From the NCBI GenBank assembly GCA_032622095.1, contig CP136069.1:104436278-104500277 (forward strand): DNA of 64,000 nucleotides, in the 5' to 3' direction. The notes beneath the pieces were generated by a model that saw only the letters and a list, made by a program, of their open reading frames with translations, made no database searches and was not told the origin of the DNA. Positions 25,553 to 46,464 of this stretch are shown here, in pieces; the first letter of the stretch is position 1, and every line of letters begins with the position of its first letter. This DNA is from Siphonodentalium dalli (taxonomy: Eukaryota > Mollusca > Scaphopoda > Gadilida > Siphonodentaliidae). The position numbers were made by a program, and so were the translations under genes.

Positions 25553-26811
25553 TATGTTTACCCATACCATGTATGGTACACATAATGCTGACGTCCATCT
25601 GGATCAACCATCCATCATTCGTCCTTCCGTCCGTAGACACTTGCTATCCGATTCGATTACTCAAATATTTTTATCGGATCGTGTTCAAATTTTATGTGCA
25701 TGTTTATGATGACACACTCCTCACCTGTATAGTTTTTGGTATCGATCGGTTGATCTGTTTAGAAATTATTGACACTTTGCATCCACACATAGGCATGAGC
25801 TATCCGATGCTGTAACCAAAGTATTTTTTGTCCTCATTGTGTTCATATTTGATATGTAGGTTTATGATGACACACACCTCACCTGTATAGTTATTGGTAT
25901 TGATTGGTTGATCGGTTTAGAAAATAATTAACCCTGCTCTAAGTCAAACAATTTGCTTCTGATATGCCTCATATTTCTTACCTTGGTCTTTCTTAGCACG
26001 TTCTTCATCTGTATGGATTTTGGTATTGTTTAGTTAACCCTTTCCGCTCTTGGTTTTAAATAGAATTCATCCAAGCTGTGATGACTTAAATATTTTTCAT
26101 CTGATCATCACCAAATTTGGTACATATGGTCCTCCCCCGAAATACAGATCAAGTTCAAATTTGATCCGGTATATTTTAACAGAGTTATGGCCAATTAAAA
26201 TTCAAGTATTAAACTGATGATGTAATAAATAGCTGTACCTGTTTGCCACTGTGAGCTTAGAAGAGAACTCATCATGCAGAGACTGTGTTATTGGCATTGA
26301 GTTACCAGTATGTTTAGCTGGACACTAGATAGTATGGCTAGCAGAGTCTGTTGATAACAGCTGTCAAATATAATTAATGGATGGCTCTCTATTAGTTTTC
26401 CCTGCAATATTAAGTTAATCTCTTTGTTAAAACAGGTTCATTAATGTACACTCAATAAGACACCTATTCTAAAGATTACATTGGAATGGTCCATTGTTTA
26501 TTTGTAGGGATGTTTTACAGACATTTCTGTTTATAGACATTGTTGTTTACAGACACTCTATCTTAGAAATAAATTAACCCACCCAGTCCGTAGTTCCAGC
26601 ATATGATGTCATTGAAAATGACTAACCTCTCCACACATCATATGGTCTTGTGATGTTTTTCATCTCATCATTCTCCTATTCTGTGCCCAGGTTGATGGTG
26701 ATCCACTTTTCACTCACATGGATTTTGGAATTAAAATTAACCCATTCCATAGGCAGATATTAAATTATCTCTTTCACCTTGAGCCAGGTTCAGTAAGGAT
26801 TTCTATATTAA
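25553..26811 (+). repeat. Repeat X, copy 1, left half
   Basis: It begins with the hairpin 25,553-25,584 (TATGTTTACCCATAC, loop, GTATGGTACACATA), then a CCGTCCGT tract and units with GACACTTGCTATCCGATTCG and CACCTGTATAG. It aligns through GAGCCAGGTTCAGT (about 26,781) with the intact copy 2 near 57,172, then stops exactly where the Z terminus begins. It also resembles copy 3 at 58,752. No coding sequence is seen. Confidence 0.85.
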
Positions 26812-26960
26812 AGGGAGCTTGTCCAATTAGATCGGAATTTCCGTCGGAGATCAGAGTTTTAACTCCGATCATCGGAATTTCTCACATCGGAGTTTTTTTC
26901 CAGTCAAGAACTCCGATGAATTCCGGTGAAAATTCCGATGAACACTTAACAAAACTCCGG
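26812..26960 (+). repeat. Z left terminus and subterminal motif array
   Basis: Terminal inverted repeat followed by many ATCGGA/TCCGAT words (for example GATCGGAATTTCC, ACTCCGATCATCGG, AACTCCGATGAATTCC). This is typical of transposase-binding arrays. It is the partner of 44,700-44,921. Confidence 0.75.
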
Positions 26961-27666
26961 TGTAATTGGATGTGGTCGCAAATCCGTCACTGTGGGTGAC
27001 AAAGCCCTGAATATCTCGTGAAGCAAGTGCTATTAAGGGGGAGGTCAAGTGACCAATCATTTTGAATCGGGATTTGCATGCAAACCACCCCAGCAAAAGT
27101 TATATATCAAGCATTGTCTGGGAACTAAAGCAGCCATATGATTAAACAGACATAACCTTTTAACTGGCGGCTGGGCTTGGTAAATAGGTAATTTTTGCTA
27201 TAAATTTATTTTTGAGAATTTATTTCTGGAATTACAACACGAAAAATCAATAAAAAATAAATACATCAACTTTCTCAATGGAACAAATTCTAAGCTGACC
27301 CACCAGGTAAATGCATATTGTTTTCAATACTGCACACAGTCACACTCAGAAATTTCTGCAATTTGTAACTTTTACTGCAGAGATTTGCATTGAAATGTCC
27401 ATTCAAAATTGGTCACTTTACGTCCTCATTAATTTGCTGCATTGTCGAATTATGAAATTATACCATAATCCAGTTCTGCCATAAACAATACACATTTTGA
27501 TTTTGTACGAGTAATTTTGCGATTAGTTAACTTGTCCTCGTTTGGGTCATCGGTCACCGTTTAATGTGCATACCAGTATCAATAGAAGAATAAAGACTCA
27601 AAACAATTATTCCCCTACCCCGGTTTATAGTATACTTTCCGTGTGGCATGTGGATCGTCTTGCAGT

Positions 27667-27807
27667 TTCAATTTGTCATTCTATATCAAACACACGTTTA
27701 ATATGGACGCCAAGCAGGGGGTTTACAGTAGCCTAAAAGGTGACACATCTCTGCATGTGCTGTATTTGCTACATCGTCAGATTCTGTGAATACCGTAAAC
27801 CCAGTCC
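27667..27807 (+). repeat. Direct repeat inside Z, left copy
   Basis: Shares GGGTTTACAGTAGCCTAAAA, a following GGNGACACA word, GCAACATCGTCGGATTCTG-like sequence and TAAACCCAGT with 44,329-44,486 in the same orientation, at about 80% identity. It lies about 0.85 kb inside the left end of Z. Confidence 0.7.
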
Positions 27808-27965
27808 TAGTAGTGTAGTAAACATTGCAAATCTTCATACATGCTCCCAATGATGCCGACAGCCAGTCGGCTTATTTGGTGAGTCAGCAGCGTGACAAAA
27901 TTCGTGATTTCATGATATCTCACTATTAAAGTTCTTGTGCGATTCGAGTTTTCCAAGCGTGGTAG

Positions 27966-28204
27966 AGATCATATTCCACCAGTACAAAACCTTGAAACTT
28001 TTTGAAGTTTTGACAGGGAAACTTATATTCGAAAGAATAACACAGGGAATATATTTCTTAGTTATCACCTGTTTCTGCTTACAAATATGGAATTTCTCCT
28101 GGGTAATTAATCCAATGTTTATTGCGATATCGGCTCACAAAAGTCACAGAAAAGCATGCAATCTCAACCCCCTATTAAATGTGAAGTAGATTATTGAGAA
28201 ACAA

Positions 28205-28238
<34 letters not shown>

Positions 28239-28352
28239 ACAAAGAATTATATTCCCTGCCTTGTTTGTTCAATGTTATTTATAAAGTTCCCTGTCAGAAC
28301 GGGTCAGAAAATAAAAAAGTTCCCAGGTTTTGTATTGGTGGAATATGATATC
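27966..28352. repeat. Inverted repeat around a TA microsatellite
   Basis: Arms of about 90-105 bp (27,966-28,052 and 28,245-28,352) pair through ATCATATTCCACCA, ACAAAACCT, ACAGGGAA and CAGGGAATAT. The interior contains a (TA)n tract at 28,203-28,236. The structure is that of a MITE. Confidence 0.65.
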
Positions 28353-29090
28353 TGCGGGCGTTAGCCAGATTAGAGATTCATGGCATGATCTATGATATAA
28401 ATAGCATTTTTTTTTCTATATCTAGAAATTTGTAAGAATTGGAATCGCCAAAGTTACAACCCAAGGGGTGGGGCGGGGTGAAAATATATTTTATATATAT
28501 TTATATATCTATGTATGACTGAGTTATTTAATTTATCTTCCACAAACAATACAGACATATCCAGAAGATTCATAGCAGAACTATGGTTAACCAGCAATAT
28601 CCCCACAGACAATGTATCAAGTCACAGAATTGTGCAATTCATGACATCACTTGCGCACGCTCTCACAGTACAACGACTGTCGTAAACCCAGTAATTTTGA
28701 ATGCATGTATTAAAATTGGAATGCTTCTGTTTGGTTTGCTGAGTGATTGTTAACTTGGAGTAATGTTCATACCACATAAATAATAGCACAAACCGCAAGC
28801 AATGTTGGTGTATGTGCCAATACATGCCCAACGATCCCATTGATCGATTTTATATGTATACTATAATTACGATGGCTTGAGATACAACGATTCCCAGAGC
28901 CCGAACAAGGGGTGGGGTCCAGTTAGAAATCTTGGTAGGATACTCCAATTCACCAGGACCTCTTCTGTACGTCCATGAACCATGATATACATGTGCAACT
29001 AGACCATTCCCGGACACATTGTGTACATATAAAGGAATTATCGTGCTTTATACAATTTGTGTCGATCAAATCCGGGTCAAATGAAAGATG
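28353..29090. other. No gene seen
   Basis: AT-rich sequence within Z. The 72-codon minus-strand frame at 28,622-28,840 has no domain. Confidence 0.4.
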
Positions 29091-29406
29091 AAACGTGTTA
29101 TAAAGCTCCTACGAGATAACTCGTAGTCGGCACCTGGGATGAAACTCACCAGTGGTCATCGCTGGTGCCAGCTACGAGTAATCTCGTAGGTAAATACATA
29201 TTATGTTTTTTGACGTCTTATTCAACGTAGTCTGTACCAATTATCATATATAAATTCATTTACCATGTCTTACATACGATATGCTTGTACATGTATAGCG
29301 CTCTTCGTCATCTAAGATACTGACAACGTAATTGTATTTACCTACTAATAAATTCCGTCCCAGTTGCCGACTACGAGTTATCTCTTAGTAGCCTTATAAC
29401 ATGTTT
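29091..29406. mobile_element. MITE with nested hairpins
   Basis: The outer inverted repeat runs AAACGTGTTATAAAG to CTTATAACATGTTT, continuing through CTACGAGATAACTCGTAGTC and its complement (arms about 45 bp). Inside are two further palindromes: 29,107-29,191 (CCTACGAGATAACTCGTAG against CTACGAGTAATCTCGTAGG) and TAGGTAAATAC/GTATTTACCTA (29,188 and 29,333). The same 19-bp motif thus occurs three times in alternating orientation. Confidence 0.75.
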
Positions 29407-30055
29407 CAGCATCATATGACCCGATATTGGTCGAACCATTACTCATATATACGTAAAATATCATCTACTATCGGCAAAACATCAAATCCCATGTTGGCAT
29501 ACGGGATGGAGTTACCCATTGGTTTTCGGCAGTGAACGTGTTAATTAAAGTGCTGGCAATTTCCAACCTTACAACCCCTCCCGAGGTTGGAAAATTACCA
29601 ACTGATGGTCATTTCAGTCAAAAAAATTGACATAAAGTAGGACAATTTAATAAATGGATGTTTATTTGCTTGCGTTCCATTGAGTATGGATGCAAGTTGG
29701 TCTGACATTTTGCGTGTAACCCCAAAGCAGTTGGAGTCTGTGCATGACGTACTTTTGACCAACCAACACCACAGCATTCATGTTCCACGATGCGAATGCA
29801 TATGTGATTATAAATATATAAAACTGCTGCTCTAAAAACAACAAAATTCCCCACTAATTAATATATTGCAGGAAAACATACTACGAGAGCAATTTCAACC
29901 TATTGTTCGTTTGAAATTTCCAATTATTTTTGTGTCAGTTGTGACATTTCCAACTGCATGTTGAACATTTTCCCAAAGTAAACCATATAGGTCTACCACA
30001 GCGTTGATATAAAACAAATTAATGTTTAGTCGCATTATCTTGAATGCACTGGTGT
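29407..30055. other. No gene seen
   Basis: AT-rich sequence. Overlapping minus-strand frames at 29,595-29,854 occupy all three frames and are not supported as genes. Confidence 0.4.
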
Positions 30056-30130
30056 CCAGAACAAAATTTGACCCCCACCCCAGTAACACTTCGCCAAGTA
30101 TTATTGGGGTGGGGTAAAATTTTGTTCTGG
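30056..30130. repeat. Inverted repeat with CCAGAACAAAATTT arms
   Basis: The left arm (CCAGAACAAAATTTGACCC, then CACCCCAGTAA) pairs with the right arm ending GGGTAAAATTTTGTTCTGG over about 30 bp. The loop is about 12 bp. This is a small foldback. Confidence 0.75.
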
Positions 30131-30188
30131 TCACCTGTGCTTGAATGTAAGTGAAATAACGTACTAAAATAAGTCGTGCATTTGTTTT

Positions 30189-30780
30189 TATGTTTACCCA
30201 TACCATAGTATGGTAAACATACTGTCGTTGTCCGGATTGACCACTTGTTGTTTGTCAGTCCGTTCGTACGTCGTGCCGTCCATCCGTCCGTCCATCAAGA
30301 ATTGTCTTCTTCTCAAAAACTATTAGACCAATTGGATTCAATTTATTTGATGTGGATGTTCCCGAGGTAACTCACATTCAGATTTGTTCAAATGAGATCA
30401 CCAGGTCAGTTAGTTGCGAAACCAGGGTCATAACTATTCCTCCAGGTAATTCTTAGATTGACATCTTGTCTAGAACCATTGGGTCGATTTAGCTTATATT
30501 TGGTATGGAGCGACCTTGGATGACTGGGGTTCAGATTTGTTAAAATGATGCCACCAGGGCCATAACTCTATTCCTCCATTCTATTTCTTAGAACTACTTC
30601 TTGTCTAGAACCATTGGGCTGATTTAGCTTATATTTGGTATGGAGGGTCATTGGATGACTGTGGTTCATATTTGTTCAAATAGGGTCACTGCATCAAATA
30701 GGGGTGGAGACAGGGACATAACTAAACAAAAATAAAAAAATTGAACTCCTTGATCAATTTAACATAATTTTTTTTTTTAA
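30189..30780 (+). repeat. Hairpin-headed repeat F2
   Basis: Head hairpin at 30,189-30,221 (TATGTTTACCCATAC, loop, GTATGGTAAACATA), then a CGTCCGTCC tract, then three units of about 120 bp with GATTTAGCTTATATTTGGTA, CAGATTTGTT and GGNCATAACT. It ends near the T-run at 30,770. No coding sequence. Confidence 0.8.
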
Positions 30781-30887
30781 ACATGTTAAAGACATGTGTA
30801 AACAACTGCTTAGCTAGCACTCATGCCAGTGTGTGTCATTAAAATCAAATCAAAACAACATGTTGTTCCCAAACCTGTATTTAGTGT

Positions 30888-31286
30888 CTGACATTTGCAG
30901 AATGAGGTCCCCACCAGTTGAATTTAGTTATGCTACCCTGCACAGCAGGCTAGCATCACCAAATACACTATCCAGGGACCTCATTCTGCTTTATAATATA
31001 GGCCTCATCTTCTGGGAAGTATATAGGTCTTAAATGGACATTTTTACTTACTTTTTCCATTCTGTTCAGTTTCTATATCCCCTAATTTGCAGATGATAAA
31101 ATGCATAATTGAGGTGCCCATCACTAACTTTAACTGGAGAACTTCAATCTATTCCTATGTCTCCCATATCAGTTGAGGCCTAAACAGTATGAGGTCCCCA
31201 GAGGGTGAATTTGGTGATACTAGCCCCGTCTTGCAGGATTGCATCAATAAATTCACACTTTGGGGACCTCATTCTGCAAATGTCAG
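30888..31286. mobile_element. MITE made of two hairpins
   Basis: The termini CTGACATTTGCAGAATGAGG and its complement at 31,262-31,286 form inverted repeats of about 25 bp. Each end is itself a hairpin of about 95 bp, because GCAGAATGAGGTCCC recurs inverted at 30,972-30,990 and again near 31,191. No target duplication is clear. Confidence 0.7.
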
Positions 31287-31350
31287 GCTTGGCTGTTCCA
31301 ATATTATAATAATTAATTTTCTTAACCACCACGTATCCAGTTGAACTCAT

Positions 31351-33290
31351 TATACCCTGATTTTACAAAGAAAAATTGGGGGTATATTGGATTGAATTTG
31401 TCTGTACCTCTTGTCAGACTGTCCTCCCATCCATCGGTCTGTCGGGATGTCTTTCCATCCGTCCATCAATTGTTTTCTTCTCCAGATACATATTAATGAC
31501 CGAATGGGTTTATATATTTTGGTTTGGATGTCCCCCAGGTGACTCACATTTGTTCAAATGAGTTCATCAGGTCAAATAGGTGAGAAGCCAGTGCCATAAC
31601 TCTTTCCCTCCATAGTAATTCTTAAAACATGTAGGTGTTATGTATATTTTGGCTGAACCCTTTATCATAATTCTTAAAACATCTTCTCAAGAACCATCAG
31701 GCCTATTTAGCTTATATTTGGTATGGATGGTCGGCAGACCTGTTAACCTCACAAAATATTTTCCGGGAGATTGGTCACGATTTTCCGTGAGATCGTGGTC
31801 ATCATCCGGGAGATTTAAAAAAAATTTATTCCTTTTGCATTTTCATAATTTTGACAACAAAAATAAAAATAATATGATCAGCTATAACACATATTAACAG
31901 GCAAATTAACAAGTATTCTTAAGAAATACATTTACTGTGTAGTTTTTACTTTTATCGTCTAATTTATAGAGGAAATATCGTAAGCTACCGGATTACGTAT
32001 ATCAATATTAAACTGTAAACTACTTTCGATTTGATTTATATCTTGCGAGATTTCAAATGTCACATTAAAAAGTACAACTCAGGAACAGATTCCGAAAGTT
32101 TAAAGCCAGAACATGTGCTTCTTTTGAATTTTATCAGACCAATAAACTTTAATGGTAGTTTCATATAACCTCAGGGCTTATCTCTAGTGGGTTGCCAATT
32201 GAGAACATGTCACCTTTGTTCTGTATGGTGATCCTGTTCAATAGAACTTAGAAGGTGTTTGTTGTTTTATTGTCCGGTGCCCCTGCTGTGCGAACAATGT
32301 TGATTTTATGACCCCAGATTAATCATGGGTGTTAATTGATACAATGATGTTGCAATCCAATATCAGGGATGTGTTGATAGCCTGTCTACTGGTCAAATAG
32401 ATAAAATAAAGAGATTATTTTTTGTGATTTTCTACAGTAGCTGAATCCGGGAGATTGTCATGCCTGTCCGGGAGATCGTGCGGGAGATCGTGCTCAAATC
32501 CGGGAGTCTCCCGCACAATCCGGGAGGGTTAACAGGTCTGATGGTCGGTCCTTGTGTAACTGGGATTAAGATTTGTTCAAATAGGGTCAACAGGTCATAT
32601 AGGGGTGAAGCCAGGGACATAACAACATCGTCTTCTCAAGAACCATCGGGCCTATTTAGATTATGATTGGTATGGAGCTTCCTACGGTGACTGGAGTTCA
32701 GATTTGTTCAGATTTTGGGTCATTTTAGGAAAAATCAGGATTGTTCAAATAGGGGCAGAGATAAGAGATTTAACTCTCAACCAGCCACCCTACCTGTATC
32801 GATGATGTTTGATACTGGTTTAAAATATATAGATTCCTATTGATTTCTAAGGTGCCTGTGTGGGTGCAATGGGGCGGAAGTGTAGAGGGTTGGGGTTTTG
32901 AACCCCCTACTTTGATAAAAAAATTCTAACAGAAAATTAATGCCTGATTAGTTGTAGATTTGATTTTTCAACCAGTAACTGTCCATATTTTCCTACTTTG
33001 GGTTAACCTGTAGGACCAAAATGGCCACAAATTTTAACTTTATGGGGGATGTCAGGTTGGAAATTTCCAAGTTCGAGAGCTTGAAGTACCTGTAACAGTT
33101 GTAAAATTTCATTCTAAGAGGGATGTGCAAAAGGAATTTTGTGAACTTAGGACTGTGGTCTGGTTGTCTTGTTGAAAAATGGTAAGGGGTTGGATATTTG
33201 TCAGTGGTGTGCAATTAAAAATTTCAAGGTGAAGAGCCTTGCTCATCTGAGAACCTTCAGCTATGTCCCTGTTTAGAATTACTTGTCTTC
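31351..33290 (+). repeat. Hairpin-headed repeat F5, interrupted by an hAT element
   Basis: Head hairpin at 31,351-31,386 (TATACCCTGATTTT, loop, AAAATTGGGGGTATA), then CCATCC/GTCTGTC words, then units with GGCCTATTTAGCTTATATTT and CAGATTTGTTCA. The hAT element at 31,735-32,540 splits one unit. The right boundary is uncertain. Confidence 0.65.
31735..32540. mobile_element. Non-autonomous hAT element with 8-bp target duplication
   Basis: The termini CAGACCTGTTAACC and GGTTAACAGGTCTG are inverted repeats. They are flanked by identical ATGGTCGG at 31,727-31,734 and 32,541-32,548, the 8-bp duplication typical of hAT. Both subterminal regions carry repeated TCCGGGAGAT motifs, likely transposase sites. 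No transposase is encoded in the 806 bp. Insertion is into repeat F5. Confidence 0.88.
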
Positions 33291-33979
33291 AGTGATTTTG
33301 ACAATTACTGACTGTTGTAGTCTTCAGAGTACCAGTCTTCTCAGTCTTTACTGTCTTGTTTATTTTATTTTTTTTATTTTTATGTTAACCAACCACCTTT
33401 TACAGGTGAATTTATTTAATGATACCAATGCAGCTCTAAGTTCTTTGATGCTTGGACTTACATTGGATCAACCCAGGACAGATATAGTTGATTTAACCAA
33501 TTCCATGTCTTAACCTTTTCCATTATTAAATAACTATATTATTTTGATATGTCGCATGGCAATTTGCAACAATAGAAATAGAATTATGATAGTGGTAACT
33601 CTTTTGCTGCATTGTAATTCTTAAAAGGTCTCTCCAGAACCACAAGACTGAATGGTATCATATTTGGTGTGGATGGTCCCTTGGTGACTGGGATTCTGAT
33701 TTGTTTGAATTTCAACTTAAGTCACCTGATTTATTAACAATTTACGAGTAAACTATTTAGCCACACCCCAGCAATGCTCTTGTTAATTGTTGAAAGAATG
33801 CTGTTCTTAAAATTAAAAAAGATTTGGAACTAAACCGTCCAAGAGTAAGTTTGACACACCCAAATTTGTAGACTATATTTCTGAACATTCAGCTCTCAAT
33901 CATTTCTCTTAACACAAATAAATTCTGCGATCCTTGTGGTTTCAAATATTGAAATTTGACTGTAGTACAGTTGATTACA
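33291..33979. other. No firm gene; possible exon-like frame
   Basis: A strong acceptor-like TTTTACAG precedes a frame at 33,405-33,513 reading VNLFNDTNAALSSLMLGL and so on to a stop. It has no donor site and no recognised domain. It sits 0.7 kb before the GAK-like exon, but I could not match it to GAK. Confidence 0.25.
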
Positions 33980-33983
33980 TTAA

Positions 33984-34143
33984 CCCTTTCAGTGCCAAGT
34001 CCGATTTTTGTATCAACACATATTTCCTTGATCATTTTTCAAGTTTGTTCACATCAATGTATCACATTATTATAATCAATAAATTTGAAAAATGATCAAG
34101 GAAATATGGGTTGATACAAAAATCGGACTTGGCACTGAAAGGG
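33984..34143. mobile_element. piggyBac-type MITE with TTAA target duplication
   Basis: Terminal inverted repeats of about 62 bp start CCCTTTCAGTGCCAAG and pair with at most a few mismatches. TTAA flanks both sides (33,980-33,983 and 34,144-34,147), the target duplication of piggyBac-like elements. It is 160 bp with no coding sequence, 93 bp before the GAK-like exon. Confidence 0.85.
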
Positions 34144-34236
34144 TTAAAGTTTTGATTTACTCTGCTGTTCCAAAAATTGGTAGATGTTTAATTCTTTTTG
34201 ACATGTTAATACATAGCTGATGCTAACTATTTGTAG

Positions 34237-34385
34237 CTATGTCTTACCCTGCTGAAGGAATGGAGGCCACATTCAAGAATCATATAGATGATATGAAAAT
34301 CTATCTGGATTCCAAGCACAAGAATGGCTATGCAGTATACAATTTGTCTCAAAGATCCTATCGTCCTATCAAGTTTGACAATCGG
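34237..34385 (+). CDS. GAK/auxilin-like exon (PTEN-like domain, first part)
   Basis: Preceded by TTTGTAG and followed by GTAAG, this 149-bp exon enters in phase 2 and encodes 49 residues including MSYPAEGMEATF, FLDSK-like YLDSKHKNG and YNLSQRSYRPIKFDNR. This matches the start of the tensin/PTEN-like phosphatase domain of cyclin-G-associated kinase and auxilin, proteins that recruit Hsc70 to uncoat clathrin vesicles; the domain binds phosphoinositides. The frame is clean. GAK and auxilin cannot be told apart from this piece. The kinase exons expected upstream in GAK were not seen in the window. It lies inside segment Z. Confidence 0.82.
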
Positions 34386-35731
34386 GTAAGCCAATTTGTT
34401 TGTTGAAATGACTGGGCAAAAAAGAAAATAGGCTAAGCAAAATTGTTTTGCTCAAGGGTACCTTAATGATTTAGCACCTAGGATATCCAAGTTTGGCAGC
34501 CATTGGTGAGCCGACCATTGTTATATAGCGGAATACCGGGATGATGTTACACACCCCCTTTACAGTAATTCCCACAATACCGGAATGTTGTATGCATCAT
34601 TATCAAAGTAATATTTATCTCCTTTTTGCAGGCACAAAATCCATCATACATGAATGGATAAACAAAATTAAGTGTGTTGAATATTGTCTAAATATCTGTG
34701 TGGTGTTCTTGTAGTAAACATTCCATTTTATTATCATTTAATTCTGTAGAATTACAATTTGTACACAAAATAATGTAAACATGTGATTTAACATTGAAAC
34801 TGAAAACGAAAGTAAGATTCTGTGAATCCAATCAGATATACCGGTCTGTTTACGCAAGGTTACATAAAATAATTCCCAAATAAGTCACTGTTTAATTGAT
34901 TCATATTCACCTGAGACATTTATTTCGTGAATAAAACAAGGTAAATGTGCTAAACATTGACGTTATTTATGAAAGAGTAGCTCCTAAAATGCGAAGAATT
35001 ATGAAATCTGACCACATGGTACATTTTCGGTACACATAAAAATCAATCAGCTGAATTTAAATAAAATGTACTATCACCATTTTATAGTCCTGTCTAATAT
35101 TGGTCAGCACACAGAAATCCATTAAAAGCTTCAAATTCAGTGCAAAATGCGACTGCAAATTGTTTATTATTGAATTAAATTTGTAGTAGACATGCAAATA
35201 CTGACAAGATCTTGGCCATAGTCTGTTTTATAATTATAATGTAGAAAATAATCCAGTGAAAAACATATTTATTTTCAATGCAAAGGTCAGTAATTATAAC
35301 AGCCATTTTTGGTTTGTTTTGTTGGCTTTTAAAATGTGTTGGTTTATTCAGAAACTAGCGAGACATTCCTCACTCGCGTGCAACTAAATTATTTTTTTGG
35401 TACCAACGTCCTCATACAATGTCTTGAGAAATAGATTACCAAACATGCAATTTCACAGAAGTCGCTTGAAACAGTGCGTACAAAAATACATTACTAATTT
35501 CATCGTAATTATGTTTCCTGTCTTAGTGCAATTTATAAATCTCACAAGAGCTATAAACCCCTTCATTATAATATAACTATTTATATCTAATATTTCATCA
35601 ATGTTTGGTATAAAGCATATTAGGGCTGCACATTCTCTAAATAAGGGCATACCTTATATCTGTAAATAATGAAAATGGTTTTTCCATTTTCCAACTTTAC
35701 TAGAATGATCATTTTATAATTATATTTGTAG
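34386..35731 (+). other. Intron between the two GAK-like exons
   Basis: GT at 34,386 and AG at 35,731. The sequence is AT-rich with no clear transposon, unlike the surroundings. Minus-strand frames at 35,453-35,829 partly overlap the second exon on the wrong strand and are shadows. Confidence 0.6.
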
Positions 35732-35854
35732 GTATCTGATTGTGGCTGGCCACAGAAGAAGGCTCCGACACTTGCGAATCTTCTAGCCATTTGTAAAAAT
35801 GTGCATCTATGGCTCCGACAGAACCCCAAAAATATTGCTGTTGTTCATTGTTTG
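35732..35854 (+). CDS. GAK/auxilin-like exon (PTEN-like domain, second part)
   Basis: A 123-bp exon of exactly 41 codons between TTTGTAG and GTACGT, starting VSDCGWPQKKAPTL and ending NPKNIAVVHCL. In GAK/auxilin this reaches the P-loop, where HC(M/L)DGRAAS follows in the next exon. The intron from the previous exon is 1,346 bp and both junctions are consistent. No following exon was found in the remaining 28 kb. The gene may continue past the window with very long introns, or only these exons are present in Z as a captured or duplicated fragment. Confidence 0.82.
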
Positions 35855-36034
35855 GTACGTATTCTTGTCAAATTCAAACCTGTACACCATCTGACAATGT
35901 TTTTCTTGTATTGAAGCAGAAGTGTAGACCATCTTTGATTTCTTGTAATGATATAAAATCCTGCAGATTGTCAGATCAACTTTTATAGTTGTACAAGTTG
36001 TATCTATTGTCAGGAGTTTGTGTGTTTGTGTTTT

Positions 36035-36600
36035 TAGCTCACCTGAGACGAAGTCTCCGGTGGAGCTATAGTCATCACTCCTCGTCCGTCGGTCGTGCCG
36101 TCCGTCGTCCGTCCATCCGTCAACAATTCTTTGAACATCTTCTCCTCTGAAACCGTAAGACCGAATTGGTTCATATTTGGTGTGGATGTTTCCTAGGTGA
36201 CTCTCATTCAGATTTGTTCAAATGAGGTCACTGGGTCAAATAGTTGCGAAACCAGGGCCATAACTCTATTCCTCGATAGTAATTCTTACAACAACTTCTT
36301 GTTCAGAACCATTGGGCCGATTTAGCTAATATTTGGTATGAAGGGTCCTTGGGTGACGGTTGTTCAGATTTGTTCAAATGAGGTCACCCGGTCAATTAGT
36401 TGAGAAACCAGGGCCATAACTCATAGTAATTCTTACAATGACTTCTTCTAAAAAACTATTGGGCCGATTTAGCTTATATTTGGTACGGTGAGACCTTGGG
36501 TGACTGGGGTTCAGATTTGTTCAAATGGGGTCACTGGGTCAAATAGGGGCAGAGCCAGGGACATAACTCTAAAAAAAACAACATTTTTACCTTTGATTTT
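36035..36600 (+). repeat. Hairpin-headed repeat F3, copy a
   Basis: Head hairpin at 36,035-36,068 (TAGCTCACCTGAGAC, GAA, GTCTCCGGTGGAGCTA), then CGTCCGTCGG tracts, then units with CAACAATTCTTTGAACATCT, TCATATTTGGTGTGGATG and GCCATAACTC. It starts 180 bp after the second GAK-like exon. Copy b is at 60,597. Confidence 0.85.
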
Positions 36601-37000
36601 TTTTAGACATATCACAGCTACCCAACCCCACCCTCCCCCACCCCACCTCCTGTCCCTGCCACACCACACTGTATCATACCATATTATCTCTTCCTTGTTC
36701 ACCCCATTAAAATCCTTGTTTTGATCACAGCTGTAGGAGTATCACAAAGCTGTGTGTGCAGTTGTTAAAACCTTATTATCTATGTCAACACCTCTCCTCA
36801 AGACACTGGTAGCTGATGGTTTCATAATGGAATATAATTCTCAGAGAATGCACTGGCTCTCAAGGTCATGGGAATTTTGTTAAGCTAATGTAGTCAGGCA
36901 TTCAAATAAATGTATGTCATATTCTCACAGGGATGTCCCCACAGTGTTGGGGGGGGGGGGGGTGACTGACAGATTTGTTCAATGAAATGTAAATTTGATT
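36601..37000. other. C-rich tract, G-run and unique sequence
   Basis: A CCCCACC-rich tract (36,626-36,660) is followed by unique-looking sequence and a G-run at about 36,949-36,962. No gene seen. Confidence 0.4.
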
Positions 37001-37640
37001 CTCACCTGAGACGAAGTTATAGTCATCACTTCTCATCTGTCACCTGTTCATCTATCTGTCTGTCCGTCCATCCATCTGTCAACAATTCTTTGAACATCTT
37101 CTCTAGATCATAAGACTGAATGGGTTCATATTTGGTGTGGATGTTCCCTAGGTGACTCACATTCAGATTTGTTCAAATGAGATCACTCTGTCAAATGGTT
37201 GTGAAGCCAGGGCCATAACTCTTGCCCTCCATAGTAATTCTTAAAAATGACTTCTCGTGTACCATCAGGTTGAATGGGTTCATATTTGGTAGGAAGGGTC
37301 CTTTGGTGACTGTAGTTCAGATTTGTTCAAATGGGGTCACCTGGTCAAATAGGGGCCAAGCAAAGGACAGTATTCCTTTTAATATGCTTCCTATACACGG
37401 ACCGTTAGGTTTATTTTACTGATATTTAGTATGAAGGGTTCTTTGGTGTCTGGGATTCAACTTTATGAAGATGGGGTCACCAGGTTAAATAGGATGGGAC
37501 CAGGGACATAACTGTATGTCTCTATAGTAATACTTATAATGTCTTCTCAAGAGAGGTTGGACCATATAGTATGGAGGATCCTTTAGTGACTGAGATTCAG
37601 ATCTGTTAACATGAGGTCAACCCGTTAAGAAATAACGGGA
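37001..37640 (+). repeat. F3-like repeat units without a full head
   Basis: CACCTGAGACGAAG (37,003) is a truncated head, followed by CTGTCCGTCCATCC and units with AACAATTCTTTGAACATCTTC, TTCATATTTGGTGTGGATG and GGCCATAACTCT as in copy a. It is a diverged or partial tandem copy. Confidence 0.7.
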
Positions 37641-38347
37641 CTATGGGGACTTAAGACTTTTGTGTCTAAAAAATCATTAAAATACAAAATTCATTAAAAC
37701 ATCTACCTTGGAACTACCTGACTGATTAATCTGACATACATATAGTGTTTTTGGGTCCATGGATAATTGGGCTTTAAACATGTCTAAATGGTTTTATAAA
37801 AAGCGCTTGTGAGATTGGAAATTTCCAACAATTGAGAAAGTTTGAGATGTCGGTTGTGAAATTTCAACCTAAGACATGGGGAGTCTGGAGCCCGGGTGAG
37901 AGGGGACTTCTTGAGCTGGAGGAGGGGGTGATCACTAGTGTACAGTTGGTAATTTCAAGGTATATTTGGTAATTTCAAGGTAGATTTGGTAATTTCAAGG
38001 TAGATATTCACTGATCTACATTCATGAAGCCTCTCTAGCCACATATTCTGTTTAGATCTACTTCTTTTAAAGTGATTATGAAAAGTTCTGACTGTTGACA
38101 CCAAAGTCCCAGTCTTATCAGTCTTTGCAGTCTTGTGAGCGACCCCACAGTCTTTGACTGTCTTGTTCAGTGCCGTTATTTAAAATAATTCCATAGTGAG
38201 AGCAATGTATTCAACAGAAGTTATTCATAAATGGTGCATTAAACTGAAACAAAGAAACCATGGGTTCCATTGGAGTATAAATATAATTTTATATGAAAGG
38301 ATTTTGACAATCACATAAGTTTTGGTTTTGTACTACATCAATTTATT
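37641..38347. other. No gene seen; short tandem triplication
   Basis: TTGGTAATTTCAAGGTA occurs three times in tandem at about 37,945-38,000. The rest is AT-rich. Words around CAGTCTTATCAGTCTTTGCAG (38,111) recall 33,330-33,350. Confidence 0.45.
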
Positions 38348-38610
38348 GTCCCCCGAAAAATTTATTTTTGGGGGACTATTGTAATCAGCCCCGTCCGTCA
38401 TAGACACTTTACACATGGTGCGATAACTAAAATATTTTGTATATGAATTTCTCAGCACAAGAGACAGATCGAGTGCGAATATGGGTTTTGATTCGACTAT
38501 TTTTAACAGAGTTATATGGCCTTTTTTCGAAAAAAATATTTACTCTAAAAAAAAAAAAAAAATGTTTTTAGATTGAATTCCTTTGCTCCATTAAAAAAAA
38601 AAAATGAACT
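38348..38610 (+). repeat. Hairpin-headed repeat F4, short copy
   Basis: Head hairpin at 38,348-38,376 (GTCCCCCGAAAAA, loop, TTTTTGGGGGAC), then CCGTCCGTC, then one unit with CATGGTGCGATAACT, TCTCAGCACAAGAGACAGAT and GAGTTATATGGCC, ending in A-runs. The unit text resembles that of repeat X copy 2 although the hairpin differs. Confidence 0.7.
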
Positions 38611-39780
38611 AGAATGCACTCACTGGAGCTGCCTATACTTGCACCCATCACACATTTGCATGTTTTGTGGTGTCTTACCAACAACAGTTTGAACCACGTG
38701 TGCTGGCCCCTCGTTTGAGAGATCGATAAAAAAAATCTAGATATCAAATCTCAGTTCATCCATCGCTGAAATATTTGTGTATACGGACAGAATATCTCAA
38801 GTTGATCTATTACACTAATGATAGTCTTAGTAATACGTAGGAGTTGTTTGGCATATTTATAGAACAATATAGACATCGTTCGTATGAAGGGTGTGAAGAC
38901 GATTGGTTGCCGATGATGCTAATATATATATTATATACCAATTGGGTTAAATTACTAGTTTGACTAGAGTGATATCAAGTGTGTATGCCATTGCACTTCA
39001 GCGGCAAAAACCATCAAAGTAAGTTACAAATACCGACACAAATAAATAAAAGACACGCGACCATTGGCTAGTCTTTAATTAAAAGTGTGTCAATGTGAAC
39101 ATGCCCTTAGCGACTGATCTATACCGTCTTCGGGAACATATCATCAAAATGTTTATTACGTTGAGAATGGGAAAGCTTGTTTTCCCAGTTAATTAATAAG
39201 GCATTTAATAATCCATATGTTTCAGCATTCACATTTTTCAGTGCAATTGTTTCTCAATTGAACCACTCACTCAACTGTTTGGCTGGACATGATTTATATG
39301 CACCAGGATCTTTCGAAAATGTTTTGAACTTCAAAGAAAGTTTCCAGAAATATGTTCACTCCTCACTGTTTTCGAGAAAAAAAAAACGATTCCGCACGCA
39401 TCTTTTAGACATGATCTTAACACATTTCCCAAGTTTCATGTTACATAAAATAGGCTTCTAATGGGCAGTACTATTGTCCACTTTTATTTTTTATGCAGTA
39501 TATATATATTTATAATAATAAAACACGAAGTTGTTGGCAGATAGAATGGTTTAGCCTGCCCGTGTAATACGAGTCTCAGCTTCTGGACATCGACGCAATC
39601 ATGTCTGGACTCTGGTGTTTTGCGCACCCATGTAGTTTGTGACGTCATGATGTGCGTCGTGATGTCATGGCATCTTTATCGGTTTCCAGAAAGAAATCAT
39701 TCAATATTTTTCATTTATGAACGATTTATGACCAAAATAAAACCAGATAACTATGCAAATTAAGTATATATGTGGATTTA
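38611..39780. other. No supported gene
   Basis: A 94-codon plus-strand frame (39,177-39,461) has protein-like composition, with FSQLINKAFNNPYVS near its start and a basic KKKRFR stretch, but no recognised domain and no clear splice context. It is kept here as an unsupported candidate only. Confidence 0.3.
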
Positions 39781-42700
39781 TGTGATCACTCAGATCCAAG
39801 AGACACTACCCCCACCAGTGACAGCCCTGCCACTACTGCATTGATTGTGTATGCACTACAGGGAAAAACACTCTTATCACATGGAATATTTAAACGACAA
39901 CACATGAGTGGGGTATGATCTCAGCTTTAATGCAACATTATAAGCTTGTCCTGCAGATAGCCCATACGCATGGAAACCAATTAAGCAGAGCCTTAGCTCT
40001 GACGAGAAGCCGAAGCAGAGAACGCTGAAGAAATACTTCTGTACAGCGCAGGCATGAGCATGGCCCGACGAGCAAGGTACGATTCGGAGCCGGCGCCCAA
40101 GAATTGCTATGAGGCGCCCTAAGCAATAAGCACACACGGCCAACAGGGAGAAGCCCAACGAGTGCGACGCAGGAATGGCAGTAGAGACCACTGGACAGAC
40201 CAACTCCCTATGGCTAAGCAACGGCGATGGGCGGGTAACACCACAGTTACCCCTGCAGGACGCACCAAAGCTGGATCAATGGCACTGATGACACAGCACC
40301 TGAAAGTGAAAACAAACAGCAGCAACGAGATTTAAACAAACAGGGCCATAGGCCCAAAACAAAACAGGCATCACATAACACTGAAGATGGCGTGCCACTT
40401 CGGGACGCCGAACAAAGCGGGGCATGGAGCTCCAAGGGGGAGGGAGGGAGCGCGATACGTATAATTCCAAAGTGACTTGCTTTTTCTGTTACCGGAAGGA
40501 GGCAGCATTCCGGGCGGATGTAAAATGCGGACTTTAAGTTCGGCCGATACGGAACGGATCGTACCGCAAAACCGGAATGTCTGCCGGATGACAGGATCAA
40601 AGAACCACATAAATCACCCCGAACCTTATCGGCCCTGGGTGCATTATGTGATCACTCAGATCCAAGAGACACTACCCCCACCAGTGACAGCCCTGCCACT
40701 ACTGCATTGATTGTGTATGCACTACAGGGAAAAACACTCTTATCACATGGAATATTTAAACGACAACACATGAGTGGGGTATGATCTCAGCTTTAATGCA
40801 ACATTATAAGCTTGTCCTGCAGATAGCCCATACGCATGGAAACCAACTAAGCAGAGCCTTAGCTCTGACGAGAAGCCGAAGCAGAGAACGCTGAAGAAAT
40901 ACTTCTGTACAGCGCAGGCATGAGCATGGCCCGACGAGCAAGGTACTACTCGGAGCCGGCGCCCAAGAATTGCTATGAGGCGCCCTAAGCAATAAGCACA
41001 CACGGCCAACAGGGAGAAGCCCAATGAGTGCGACGCAGGAATGGCAGTAGAGACCACTGGACAGCCCAACTCCCTATGGCTAAGCAACGGCCTGGAATAT
41101 TACACTCAGGCTACAGTTCGAGAGCACTCTCGAATAAGCATAAGATGACTGCGCAGTCATAAGCATACTAAGCTACTATTGATAAGCCACCCATCAAAGT
41201 TACCAGACAGGTTATAACGCTATGGCGACACTACCACTATATGCAGGACCGCCATAGAGTGCGCAGCACTCCCCCAAACCAGGAGCTCCATGCCCAATGA
41301 CATCAATGAAACAGTTAAACCACCGGGAAAACCATAGTGTCAGATGCCAGGAAGGTCCCCAGGGCGCCCTGGAGACTATTCAGGTAGAGAGCGTTGCCGA
41401 CTGGGGAGAGATGGATCCCATCTGAGGTTGCCGAACCTGGGTCGTCATGACCAGCAGCCAAATGATAGGGTCGATGGTCTCCCAAGGAGTAGCAGTATTC
41501 CCAACCCACTTCAACCGAAATTGGGTATCGTACACCCGCCAGGCAGATCCCCCACATTTAGCAGCCGCCCAACGAATTGTGCGCAGGTAACGCAAAAGAG
41601 GCTGGGCCGACGATTCAGGGTGAACGTCGAGGTACACCGAAACGAAAGTGAGAAAAGCATCGGTCCACGAGTCAACAGACGTTATTGGAGCAGCATGCCC
41701 GCTTGGCGCAACGCGGATTCGCCCGGAAGCAGAGACAACCAACTGACGGGGGTCAGCTGTATGAATAGATGAGGCGGGTTCCTGCAGTTGATCCAAATTG
41801 ATAAAATCGCCCCGGAAAATTTTGTCGCGAATAGACCGGGAAATGTGAGAGCCAAAACCGTCTGCCGCCGTAGGAATCGGCAAGGGGGCGTCCCAATGGG
41901 AGACCAGTGAGGATGGTAAGCTAAATAAGGGATTACCCGGATCAGTTCTGTCTCTTGCCGGAGCGTTCGGTCAGTGTATCACCGAAGCCACACGGGAATC
42001 CTCGCGGCGGCGGAGAGAAGTGGAGCTGTCGTCGGAACTGCTGCGTCGACGTGTCGACAAAGGAGACGCTGATGGTGACCTGGATTCATGGCGCGGAAAC
42101 TTGGGGCGCGGAGAACCATCCTGTCGGCGACGAGACTGACGACTGGGCTGACGACGAGGCTGACGAACAGGATCGCGGCCGCGTGAATGTGAAACCCGGC
42201 CACGGGAGGCGCGGCGTCCCCGGCCAGAGCCACGGGCAGGCCTGCTGCGCGAATGCTGTCCACGGCCACGCACCCGTGAATAAGCCACAGATGACACACT
42301 TGCCGAAACCCGAGAAGAAGGCCTAACACGGTCACTGGAAGCAGGACCAGCACGAGACGAACTGGCAGATGCATCCTGTCGACTGCTACGAGACGAACGG
42401 GCACGGGCCCGACCGCGAGATATCGTACGAACCATATGAGAACTTTTTTTAATGCCACCGAACAACAAACAATGAAACAGGGAAACACGTGCGCGACCCA
42501 CGAAAATAGGTAACGCCGACGGAACAGGACGCAGACAGAACGCACAAGGAACAAGATGATAGACGAATAAATGAAGGCTGGTGAAGAAACACGATGGAAA
42601 CAGATAGGAATTGACGACACACAACCGAGCGCGATACGTATAATTCCAAAGTGACTTGCTTTTTCCGTTACCAGAAGGAGGCAGCATTCCGGGCGGATGT

Positions 42701-42825
42701 AAAATGCGGACTTTAAGTTCGGCCGATACGGAACGGATCGTACCGAAAAACCGGAATGTCTGCCGGATGACAGGATCAAAGAACCACATAAATCACCCCG
42801 AACCTTATCGGCCCTGGGTGCATTA
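39781..42825 (-). mobile_element. DIRS-like tyrosine-recombinase retroelement with split direct repeats
   Basis: Two blocks are each present twice in direct orientation. Block A (444 bp) is at 39,781-40,224 and 40,647-41,090 with five differences. Block B (199 bp) is at 40,448-40,646 and 42,627-42,825 with three differences. Block B's first copy abuts block A's second copy. Read on the minus strand this is B-ORF-A-B-A, the split direct repeat layout of PAT/Ngaro-type DIRS elements, with an extra 220 bp in the last interval. Parts: an Arg/Ser-rich segment (42,435-41,971) and a DIRS-type ORF1/Gag-like domain (41,883-41,380). No reverse transcriptase, RNase H or recombinase part was recognised. 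It is broken and non-autonomous but recent (about 1-1.5% between copies). A head-to-tail pair of two reduced elements is an alternative. Confidence 0.75.
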
Positions 42826-43170
42826 AATTACAATTGATGCAACCATTTCATATTAGCGCATGTGCATTCTTTACAGTAGGCCTATGTACTTCCGGTATGA
42901 CGTAACATATTCGCGGGAGGACAGATAAACAGACAAATAAACAGAGATCCGGACCGAAAACATTACTTGCGTCCAGCATAGACTGGCGCAAGTAATAAAT
43001 AAAATAGATAAAAAACAATATAATAAATTTTGTTTTTTTAAATAATTGAAAACAATTTTTTTTTTTAAGTTAGTAAAATTTGAAAAAACTAACACCATTA
43101 TAACTCTGCCAAGGGTGCCCCGAGTCACCACACCAAATTTGGTTTTAAATCGGTCCAAAATCTTGTGTAA
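42826..43170. repeat. Possible hairpin-headed repeat F6 (minus strand) and A/T tract
   Basis: A hairpin at 42,963-42,996 (ATTACTTGCGTCCAG, loop, CTGGCGCAAGTAAT) is followed on the minus strand by GGTCCGGATCTCTG and TTTGTCTGTTTATCTGTCC, the same head-then-pyrimidine layout as the other families. The neighbouring words AGTCACCACACCAAATTTGG (43,125) recall the tail of repeat F3 at about 61,197. Confidence 0.45.
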
Positions 43171-43827
43171 ATTTGTTTGGAGTTACATTAAATCCAATTC
43201 ACCAATTCCATCCTATGCCTTTGGACTACTTAGCTATTTTCTGATGTCTCTTATGCCAATGTGCAGATAATCTGATAAAGAAAGCTATGGTATCTAATTT
43301 AAAATAAAGATTCAACAATACACGTCACATGATATTAACAGTAGACTTGAACATCTGTGCTGCCTTGCACAGCTGAAGATATCACTCTCCAAATTGTCTG
43401 AGGTCATTATAAATGTTATTGGTTTAATAGAGATGTCAGCTTTCAACATAAACAATTCCTGCGATTTGTTGACAGCTCTGCTAATAAATAATATTAATGG
43501 GTCAGCAGTGAGGTGGCTTATCGTGATTTATATTGTTGGTAGAATTTTATACATTATCATGGTAAACTTAAATTGGACTCTCTTAACCCAAGTATTCCAT
43601 GTCCTGGTCACCTTTCACATTTAACCCAAGGCTGTGGTGGTGCAGCATTACAGATCCTGTACCAGTGCATTCTCTTATATAAATGCGAGTGACCCATAAA
43701 TTCCAATAATTTGTGTTATGTACATATGTCTATAATAGTACATAACAGTATACTCTATAATTCAACAGCAAAACTCTCATTTATGATTCCGATCATAGTA
43801 ATTTACTATCGTCAAGGAATGGGTTAA
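43171..43827. other. Non-coding, with a repeat block
   Basis: Contains the 43,570-43,677 block shared with 21,948-22,062. The 76-codon frame at 43,394-43,624 overlaps this block and is not supported as a gene. Confidence 0.45.
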
Positions 43828-43854
43828 CATCTGCCGATCGTGATCGGCCTCTCG
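43801..43854 (+). repeat. Isolated 3' end of repeat X inside Z
   Basis: TGGGTTAACATCTGCC followed by the hairpin GCCGATCGTGATCGGC (43,833-43,848) and CTCTCG. It is the same end as in X copies 1 and 2 (47,445-47,460 and 58,282-58,297). A fourth, mostly lost X copy is implied. Confidence 0.7.
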
Positions 43855-44328
43855 TATATAACGATTGTGTGGATTACAATACATTTTTATACATACCAGT
43901 TGCGACTATAGTTGGAGTGGCTTGTTATGAGAGAGTTCCTCGACTTTATAAATTGGTTCAACATTTCAATAGTTGCCATTCCCGAAACGATGCAAGTTTA
44001 ATAGCCTGTTGGTCAGGTACTACGTTTTCAACTTTTCAGTGAACAAAGACAAGGACCAGTCTATCGCGCGAAATGCAACAACAACTGTCTAAAATTCTAG
44101 TTCATGGAAGTAAATGTACATTTTAATAAATGATTTTCGTCTCAAATTTGATATAACTGCTTTAATAGTGAATGCAATTTGCTATCTAGATGTCGTCGGT
44201 CATTGTGTTTGCAACTCTCGTGTCTGTTTATTTGCGGGCACGAAATGTCTATATTCTTGATGGTTTTGGTCGAAAGTTGCAAAGATCTGAAAACGTAGCA
44301 GTAACCTGACTCCTCCGGCCTTACATTT

Positions 44329-44486
44329 TCAATTTTTCATTCTATTTCAAACCAACGTTTTGATTTGGACACAAATCAAAGGGTTTACAGTAGCCTAAAA
44401 GGCGACACAGCTCTGAATATCAGACGGAGCATGCACTTGCTATATTTGCAACATCGTCGGATTCTGAGAATACCATAAACCCAGTT
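44329..44486 (+). repeat. Direct repeat inside Z, right copy
   Basis: Partner of 27,667-27,807 (see that entry), about 0.45 kb inside the right end of Z and in the same orientation. Confidence 0.7.
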
Positions 44487-44699
44487 CATTCCAATTAAGG
44501 GATTTGTAGATGATTTTGCTTTGCGCCACTTATTACCAGGGCCGTATATTGCAGCATTGCGCGAATATGGTTTCTATTTATGGGGAGGTTATTTCCTCAG
44601 CAAAGCGGAAATGGCCGAGTCGTTGAGAATGGAATAACATGTTACATGTCTTTCTTTGTTGTGTCTGGAAAACAATATACACCTAGAACAGAAACGACG

Positions 44700-44921
44700 A
44701 TTTATTAAAAACTCCCACGGAAATTCACGGAATCGATAACTTCGATATAAACTCCGATTGAATCGGAGAATTTTACCGATGACACCGCGAAAAATCTCCG
44801 ACAGAATCAGAGTTTTATACCGATACAAAAACTCTGATTGCCATCGGTATCGGAGATTGGAAATATCCACCGGAAACTCCAATCTCCGGCGGAAATTCCA
44901 ATCTAATTGGACAAGCTCCCT
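44700..44921 (-). repeat. Z right terminus and subterminal motif array
   Basis: Inverted counterpart of 26,812-26,960. It contains AACTCCGATTGAATCGGAG, TCTCCGACAGAATCAGAG, CATCGGTATCGGAG and ends in CTAATTGGACAAGCTCCCT. Confidence 0.75.
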
Positions 44922-45701
44922 AAGCCACCAATTGAATATTCATCATTAGAGGAAATATCTTATTTTGAAATTCCCTCAATTGCATTTGGGCTGCAGGATA
45001 ATAATAATAATGGTGCTGGTATTCTTGAGACTGGCTTATTGGTCAAATATTTTTCTTCCCGATCACTTTTATAATCTCATTCAGGTTAATCATGACATAT
45101 TCTTCACCTGTATAGATTTTGGTATTGATTGAATGGTTTTGAAAATATTAACCCTACATTTAATAATATTTCTGCTCTTTACAGACATTGTGTCTTTCCA
45201 ATGATCAGCTTAGAATAAAATTAACCATTGGTATACTGTATGCAATCCAATGTTATGACTCTTAATATTTTCAATCTGACCATTCTCATATCTCACCTTT
45301 AGTTATCTGATAATTCTGCATTAAAATATTTTATATCCAGGTCTATACTTGTATAGATGTTCAGGTATTGATTGGTCTCTGATCTCAATGATCACACTTT
45401 TTAATATGCAGCTAACACAACAACATAATATGTTATGACTCAGTTTCCAATGTAAGAAGTAGATAAATAGTGTTATTATGATGTTATTTACTTAATTTCG
45501 TAACTATTATATCTTTAACAGTTGCGTATGTCTGACTATGGTTGGGCTTATTTAGCTTTATCACTCTATAACACATACATGTGTCTGTGTTGGAGTGACC
45601 TAATAGGTTGAAATCGAATGACATATCCATGTTTGTATTGTGTTTATGTGAGCAAGTTGCCCAATAAGTCTGATTCCACTTGGGAACTATTCATTACTGT
45701 A
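44922..45701 (+). repeat. Repeat X, copy 1, middle part
   Basis: Resumes X at CACCAATTGAA, matching ACCAATTGAA at 57,201 in copy 2, and continues through CCCTCAATTGCATTTGGGCT and TTCACCTGTATAGATTTTGG. About 260 bp present in copy 2 (about 57,310-57,570) are missing. It is interrupted at 45,702 by the Tigger-like element. Confidence 0.85.
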
Positions 45702-46337
45702 TACACCCGTCAGTAAGCCCATCCTCGTGAGTAAGCCCAGTCTGGGTTTTTTGCCCTCAAACAAACATGGGGGGGGGGGGGGGGTCCTCGTGGATAAGCC
45801 CACCCCCAATTTTCAGCATTTGGGAGGTAAGTACAATCATGTCCTGCTATTCTGTGGCCGAGAAGAATCTCCAGTACAGTGCATTGAATAGATGAACGAC
45901 GATCACAAATGACAGATACTCGTTTTATTTGTACGTACTGTGTTATGAAAATAAAACAAAATTAAAAATATATGTTGCTTTTGTTATTATTTATTATTTA
46001 TATATTATAAATCTTAGGCCTATATGTTAGACAGATTATTCCCATAATATTCCCATCTTAGTTGTTGGATATATCAAAGGAGTATCAAACAAATAACACC
46101 AAAGGGTGCCACACACGTTTTTCACGCCTCTCGCGGAGTGAACCCAATGAGATGTAAGTGAATCCAATGGGATGCTATGTAATGACTGTGTGTTTTTACA
46201 GGATCGTTTGATTCTGCAGATGTGTGAGATCTCTTTACCTGCAACTCGTATGTGTGTTTTTACAAGAACTGACATGTATAGTGTGATACACGAGGTTATC
46301 AATCATATAACAATTTGAAACATTCTGCTTTCAACAT

Positions 46338-46464
46338 GTCTAAACTTCGTGCTAGATTCTCATTGGAAGTTAAAATGAAAGTTGCCGAGTGGCATCGTGC
46401 TAATGGTAGAGACTGTTCAAAAACCGCTAGACAATTCAACATTGATAGGAAGCATAGAAAATGA
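46338..46464 (+). pseudogene. Transposase N-terminus (CENP-B/pogo HTH)
   Basis: The frame starts MSKLRARFSLEVKMKVAEWH and continues with CSKTARQFNIDRK before a stop. The pattern of a basic start, KMKVAEW and then ARQFNI is that of the N-terminal helix-turn-helix which binds transposon ends in pogo/Tigger and CENP-B proteins. The catalytic DDE region expected next is absent. Confidence 0.65.

Follow-up and report, generated by a model that had tools for sequence, protein, structure and literature searches.

The window analysed here is the whole stretch of 64,000 nucleotides at C9:104436278-104500277 (contig CP136069.1) of the scaphopod Siphonodentalium dalli, in a genome of 2,226,750,531 bases on 9 contigs; it was scanned for N and none is present. 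Our subject is the segment at 26812-44921, which is bounded by inverted ends and encloses two exons of the gene GAK. The original prediction, drawn from the letters of the window alone, described this segment as an 18 kb unit that had moved as a whole, a giant gene-carrying transposon with host-like exons as passengers. Its landmarks are real and its interpretation is only partly right. Coordinates below are window positions unless a contig is named, and fetched loci are given by their L numbers.

Exon A, the start of the PTEN-like domain, lies at 34237-34385 on the plus strand, with its acceptor AG at 34235-34236 and its donor GT from 34386. Exon B follows on the same strand at 35732-35854, with an acceptor AG at 35730-35731 and a donor GTACGT from 35855. 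Written together, the two exons match auxilin (PDB 3n0a, E 3.4e-29), in agreement with their earlier identification as GAK/auxilin exons; Pfam gave no match on single GAK exons. Both exons also match human GAK. Around them the gene is laid out in order on the plus strand of C9. The kinase exons lie at 104286760, 104319945, 104337414, 104353670 and 104354305, followed by the exon before A at 104415737-104415787 (a short match, E 0.032), and the exons after B lie at 104506447, 104518860 and 104525369, with the J-domain at 104766381. The gene thereby spans ~480 kb or more (104.287-104.767 Mb), and the nest of elements described below sits between the exon before A and exon C. Splice sites and phase were checked for these two exons and for A and B: the exon before A ends G|GTAAAG, and its one leftover base fits the CT ATG start of exon A, while exon B ends in phase 0 and exon C opens GAT GGC (DGK) after AG.

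A genome-wide protein search with exons A and B (E<=0.001) found two other matches, both weak paralogues (43% and 33% identical). We regard it as well supported by order and similarity that A and B belong to the resident GAK gene, the sole GAK gene found in the genome, and the ordered exons, intact frames, splice sites and phase point to a functional gene. The view of A and B as passengers in a giant transposon finds no support in this result, given that they stand in order and in phase within GAK and have no comparable copy elsewhere; on the same two grounds we reject the idea that they are a displaced copy of GAK taken from a parent gene at another place. In Pack-TYPE and Helitron capture, the parent gene generally retains its exons, whereas no parent gene elsewhere was found to keep exons A and B. 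The segment resembles such gene-fragment captures in that host exons and introns lie between element ends, and is unlike them in that the exons lie within their own gene and have no other comparable copy. The GAK kinase query also matched a long tandem array at C2:149826885-150592608 (-) of near-identical kinase-like frames of ~281 aa, many of them 2.4-2.9 kb apart.

The ends of the segment are as described in the original prediction. The perfect 19-bp terminal inverted repeat (TIR), AGGGAGCTTGTCCAATTAG, occurs within the window solely at 26812-26830 (+) and 44903-44921 (-), and the likeness of the two ends extends to ~48 bp (44 of 48 positions equal, mismatches at 22, 33, 41 and 42), with divergence beyond. 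Subterminal ATCGGA/TCCGAT words are present as stated, if hardly in abundance, with six within ~130 bp on the left and three within ~170 bp on the right. The exact 19-mer has 35 copies in the genome (18+17) and its reversed-pattern control none (0+0); with up to 2 mismatches the counts are 130+117 vs 7+5 for the control. Queries made of the first 289 and the last 272 bases of the segment, with 40 candidates scored for each, gave at least 77 and at least 48 family matches, respectively. The search for inverted 19-mer pairs that had been put forward as a check yielded 10 adjacent convergent pairs at <=40 kb among 51 ends (0-1 mismatch); when the strands of those ends were shuffled 2000 times, the average was 3.0 pairs and no shuffling gave more than 8. 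These pairs span 1.3-36.3 kb, eight of them lying at 1.3-8.2 kb and the remaining two being the window pair (18.1 kb) and a 36.3 kb pair on C1; two of the ten, on C3 (L016/L017), are mutual inverted duplicates at 99.7%.

With the TIR taken to start at GGGAGC, flanks were read by hand in 11 paired copies, L017 being left out as a duplicate of L016. Identical TWA flanks were seen in five (L010, L011, L013, L014, L018) and TWA with one mismatch in five others (L009, L015, L016, L023 and the window copy); agreement is absent in L019, and the middle base agrees in 9/11. The window copy, in which the original prediction saw no clear target duplication, has AAA/TAA flanks given this TIR start, a one-mismatch TWA. 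A TWA target duplication is the signature of PIF/Harbinger transposons (PMC4482050). The present family resembles these elements (PHIS superfamily) in its TIRs, its short non-autonomous copies and, in some copies, a 3-bp TWA-type duplication, and differs in that the duplication is imperfect or absent in 6/11 copies. It differs too in that no DDE transposase or Myb/SANT domain was found in the 7 selected open reading frames of 5 fetched loci, the genome itself not having been searched for a transposase. Because no transposase appeared in those seven frames, membership in PIF/Harbinger is likely rather than proven.

Three further observations concern this TIR family. The 35 exact ends are confined to a single zone on several chromosomes (for example C5 130.6-157.5 Mb, C6 116-122 Mb, C9 104-111 Mb) and spread over 100 Mb on C2; the zones may be pericentromeric. 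Locus L015 holds a palindromic family member of 3.1 kb (301-3422), both of whose ends are of the right type and whose flanks mirror each other. A tyrosine-recombinase-like frame (L021 2090-3232, minus strand; DUF3504, Phage_integrase) lies between the two ends of the 36.3 kb pair on C1.

The two ends form a true pair from a single element family, and they interrupt the repeat that had been called X, as originally proposed. By its termini, repeat X is another Helentron, here Helentron-A (25549-47467). Its 5' part, the left half of X, lies at 25549-26811 (+) and is homologous to 55841-58304; the 5' motif at 25554-25583 shows 1 substitution and 1 deletion and matches the family 5' end at 92.5% over 40 bp. 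The 3' part, the right half of X, lies at 44922-47467 (+) and ends with the terminus CTCTCGT at 47467. An unbroken copy of this non-autonomous Helentron (HINE), recognised by blast homology and by both termini, lies at 55841-58304 (+), and at ~57,198 it shows the site of the TIR element unoccupied. The empty site claimed earlier is real: the joined outer flanks align with the unbroken copy at ~57,074-57,301, and in gapped blast 26538-26803 aligns to 56902-57192 and 44927-45041 to 57201-57311.

What the original prediction overlooked is that the unit is discontinuous, with the ends of a second element inside it, at 30185 and 43855. The TIR element itself, non-autonomous and ~4.4 kb long, consists of a left part at 26812-30184 and a right part at 43856-44921 (both +, each with the 19-bp perfect TIR and recognised from family copies by blast), and it runs unbroken across the junction in L010, L014 and L015. 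In L010, the counterparts of window 26812-30191 and 43857-44921 follow one another in the same order and abut directly where the insertion lies; L010 also differs within the left half, having ~270 bp where the window has the 795 bp of 28753-29547. Among 59 loci, a query joining the two flanks of the insert was crossed by the same three, the others being without one or both sides there. The two junctions between insert and TIR element are each single-copy genome-wide at up to 3 mismatches, so that the composite was detected once only. We reject the reading as one 18 kb transposon in view of the relatives with an unbroken TIR element, and repeated amplification of the composite because neither junction has a second copy. 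It could still be argued that an 18.1 kb Harbinger-like unit moved whole into Helentron-A with the exons aboard, since the 19-bp TIRs are intact, the flanks are near a target duplication (AAA/TAA), Helentron-A has an empty site and the same ends stand 36.3 kb apart on C1. We consider this very improbable: in the relatives the element is shorter and lacks the insert, both inner junctions are single-copy at the tolerance just given, and a move of the whole unit leaves the first entry of the exons into it unexplained.

The insert, 30185-43855, is flush with a Helentron 5' end at its first base and a Helentron 3' end at its last, and by its anatomy it is a HINE, here Helentron-B. The 5' end (30185-30296, +, identified by family 5'-end matches) consists of TTTTTAT, a hairpin GTTTACCC..GGTAAAC and a (GTCC)n tract. 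Among the best 40 of 794 candidates scored with the 5'-end query, 38 of the 39 other matches begin at query base 1, which is 30192, and TTTTTAT stands directly before the hairpin in 17/18 fetched copies (L046 has CGTTAT). The 5' subterminal inverted repeat (subTIR) and its complementary inverted repeat form the hairpin GTTTACCCATAC..GTATGGTAAAC right after the 7-nt TTTTTAT, and the 5' subTIR ATGTTTACCCATACC is complementary at 13/15 positions to its 3' counterpart (reverse complement ATGTTAACCCATTCC). The (GTCC)n microsatellite and ~150-bp central repeats are present. The core, which begins TAGACACTTTAC and includes the central repeat, was placed at 38401-38561 (+) by comparison among loci; a query joining 38434-38561 to 43001-43300 was fully covered by L029, L030, L031 and L033, the gaps in these alignments adding up to 40-84 bases. 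The 3' part (43001-43855, +, identified by family 3'-end matches) holds the 3' subTIR, the palindromic hairpin GCCGATCGTGATCGGC and, in the 7 nt after it, the terminus CTCTCGT. Of the other copies among the best 40 of 4952 candidates, 38/40 reach the same 3' end in their main piece, and the base after the terminus is T in 7/7 fetched copies, as for a family with a T-rich target and no duplication. Both termini occur in one orientation in the short copies L031, L032, L036, L037 and L039 and in window 55841-58304; the ends of the insert therefore belong to one element family.

A canonical Helitron (5' TC, 3' CTRR) does not fit the ends of the insert. The closer likeness is to the Cg_HINE/Pearl elements of oysters, which are non-autonomous Helentrons (PMC7492417). 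They share with Helentron-B the 5' subTIR with its complementary inverted repeat, a GTCC-type microsatellite, satellite-like central repeats and the 3' subTIR with a palindrome, and with its family as a whole a T-rich target without duplication. The likeness is one of anatomy, and the copy here is unlike them in enclosing host exons that have no other comparable copy. DINE-1/HINE elements of flies and mites have a similar terminal anatomy, a TT preference, variable terminal Ts, a microsatellite and central repeats; they belong to another host group, and the passages of PMC4067079 consulted make no mention of a resident gene having its own exons enclosed. Elsewhere, in L035 (47-93) and L046 (44-86), a further 5' end begins no more than a few bases past a Helentron 3' end, the head-to-tail order expected of rolling-circle elements.

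Between the arms of Helentron-B, at its GTCC tract, lies an 8.1 kb block (30297-38394, +) that bears the exons and has chimeric joins at both GTCC tracts. It contains, in order, the core of a type-2 HINE, the GAK exons with introns, a type-2 HINE and the 5' end of a type-3 HINE. The type-2 HINE downstream of exon B (36031-38167, +, the 3' limit approximate) has a 5' hairpin AGCTCACC, a GTCC tract and ~150-bp central repeats; the type-3 piece (38336-38395, +) is a 5' hairpin GTCCCCC..GGGGGAC with a short GTCC tract, fused to a type-1 core. At the left join (~30296) a type-1 5' end passes into a type-2 core, a continuation seen in 0 of the 39 other matches listed. At the right join the type-3 hairpin passes into the type-1 core, so that the core of Helentron-B resumes at 38401, just after the GTCC tract. 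The type-1 core was found in 5/7 loci picked by their 3' end (L029-L033) and at window 55978, and a type-1 left flank stands beside all six of these other cores, though in L029 and L030 it is incomplete. From the joins at both tracts it follows that one HINE was split at its own microsatellite by a block that has HINE microsatellites at its ends. The nest also contains a DIRS/Ngaro-like element at 39778-42825 on the minus strand, with split direct repeats (448 bp, 98.9%; 199 bp, 98.5%). Two frames scanned in it held no reverse transcriptase or recombinase domain, and its long minus-strand frames have no Pfam match; it looks like a recent DIRS/Ngaro-type element with a gag-like frame only, a family name that we infer.

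Our preferred explanation, to which we would give a probability of roughly 0.57, is that ordinary transposable elements have piled up in the introns of GAK, one inside another, with two GAK exons at the centre, the block with the exons having arrived by recombination between GTCC tracts. As read from the alignments, the nesting of the elements is well supported, and the order of layers that they show runs from Helentron-A through the Harbinger-like element and Helentron-B to the 8.1 kb exon block. As the sequences show, the non-autonomous PIF/Harbinger-like element broke into the non-autonomous Helentron-A and was itself split, at a T-rich site, when Helentron-B, a second HINE, inserted. The arms of Helentron-B now enclose the 8.1 kb block with exons A and B. 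The block may have reached Helentron-B through recombination between short HINE-borne (GTCC)n tracts, of which three would be involved: those of the type-2 HINE upstream of exon A, of the type-3 HINE downstream of exon B and of Helentron-B itself. Either a circle would have been excised and then re-integrated, or the block would have been copied by template switching and the original lost later; the DIRS-like insertion would subsequently have enlarged the nest. Because the exons on either side of the nest are still the same, the order of the gene would have been preserved and the change tolerated. The sequence comparisons suggest relocation of exons through recombination at transposon-borne microsatellites, and recombination among the three GTCC tracts appears to be the economical reading. 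More tentatively, and with more doubt than confidence, we suggest that the sole-copy exons moved within their own gene by circle excision and re-integration at microsatellites spread by Helentrons, and that they could in principle be excised or copied together with the enclosing elements.

Several observations weigh against recombination among the three tracts. In its simple form, by circle or block swap, it predicts a scar between the neighbouring exons, namely a type-2 5' hairpin followed by GTCC and a type-3 core. A search of the full 90.7 kb that begins with the exon before A and ends with exon C revealed neither this scar nor a second copy of the exons. The full type-2 hairpins at 36,036 and 60,598 are each accompanied by their own core, and the single type-3 core, which lies ~14.3 kb beyond the left edge of the window, comes after a partial hairpin of its own; the core that belongs to type 3 is represented here by two copies, L012 and L063. 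A few very weak hairpin matches stood just above one shuffled control, which leaves room for a strongly decayed scar. Moreover, the type-2 hairpin of L027 (at 2582), one of five type-2 hairpins seen, has a different core past its GTCC tract, possibly through another swap at the microsatellite; with such a foreign core in L027, tract swaps occur elsewhere and are no peculiarity of this locus. In oysters, too, shuffling of HINE flanks and central repeats is seen (PMC7492417). Lastly, the window copy of Helentron-B is followed by A and not T, with a T run on its left side, and a 3-bp TAT overlap is possible. A 13.7 kb insertion with a 3-bp TAT duplication, a possible reading, was set aside because TTTTTAT is part of the Helentron 5' end.

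The missing fresh scar also speaks against a simple error of assembly, in which blocks would have been swapped between the three (GTCC)n tracts and the exons would truly lie beside the nest rather than inside it. In favour of such an error, both inner joins lie in short tracts of low complexity, where a swap of blocks would be likely. It predicts, however, a pristine type-2/type-3 junction nearby, and none was found within the 90.7 kb; the joins lie in tracts of some tens of bases, which long reads would normally cross, and the window is without any N. We therefore regard an assembly error as improbable.

A rolling-circle capture deserves somewhat more credit and is still, in our view, unlikely. 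Upstream of exon A, a Helentron would have started at a type-1 5' end and run on across both exons until it met a type-1 3' end, the first one downstream of exon B; the product would have inserted into the Harbinger-like element in the same intron, and the originals would have been lost later. The insert does start and stop at Helentron termini, in one orientation and at a T-rich site, and capture of gene fragments by Helitrons is an established process. Against this, chance re-insertion in the same intron interval and on the same strand of a 2.23 Gb genome would be required, followed by loss of the original, and the arms of the insert look like a single type-1 HINE cut in two at its GTCC tract rather than two whole elements. 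An old event with later turnover, copying followed by loss, and rolling-circle capture are all candidate histories.

Transposons are known to copy pieces of genes and to fill introns, and each layer of the nest is an ordinary type of element; the enclosure of in-frame exons that have no other comparable copy is unusual. A search of the open-access literature brought no report to our notice of sole-copy host exons inside a Helentron. If relocation at GTCC tracts is correct, repeats borne by transposons can rearrange a gene's own exons and leave gene order unbroken. Two cautions attach to the case: what look like gene fragments between transposon ends may be parts of the genuine gene, and real exons could be hidden when repeats are masked as nested intervals.

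Two other features of the window lie outside the nest. At 13052-16018, two pairs of inverted arms of 262-264 bp, 98-99% complementary, surround a 21/42-bp tandem array that switches strand near 15110. At 102-1726, on the minus strand, are frames of a BEL/Pao retrotransposon, with a Peptidase_A17 match (E 3.6e-43) and a weak reverse transcriptase match.

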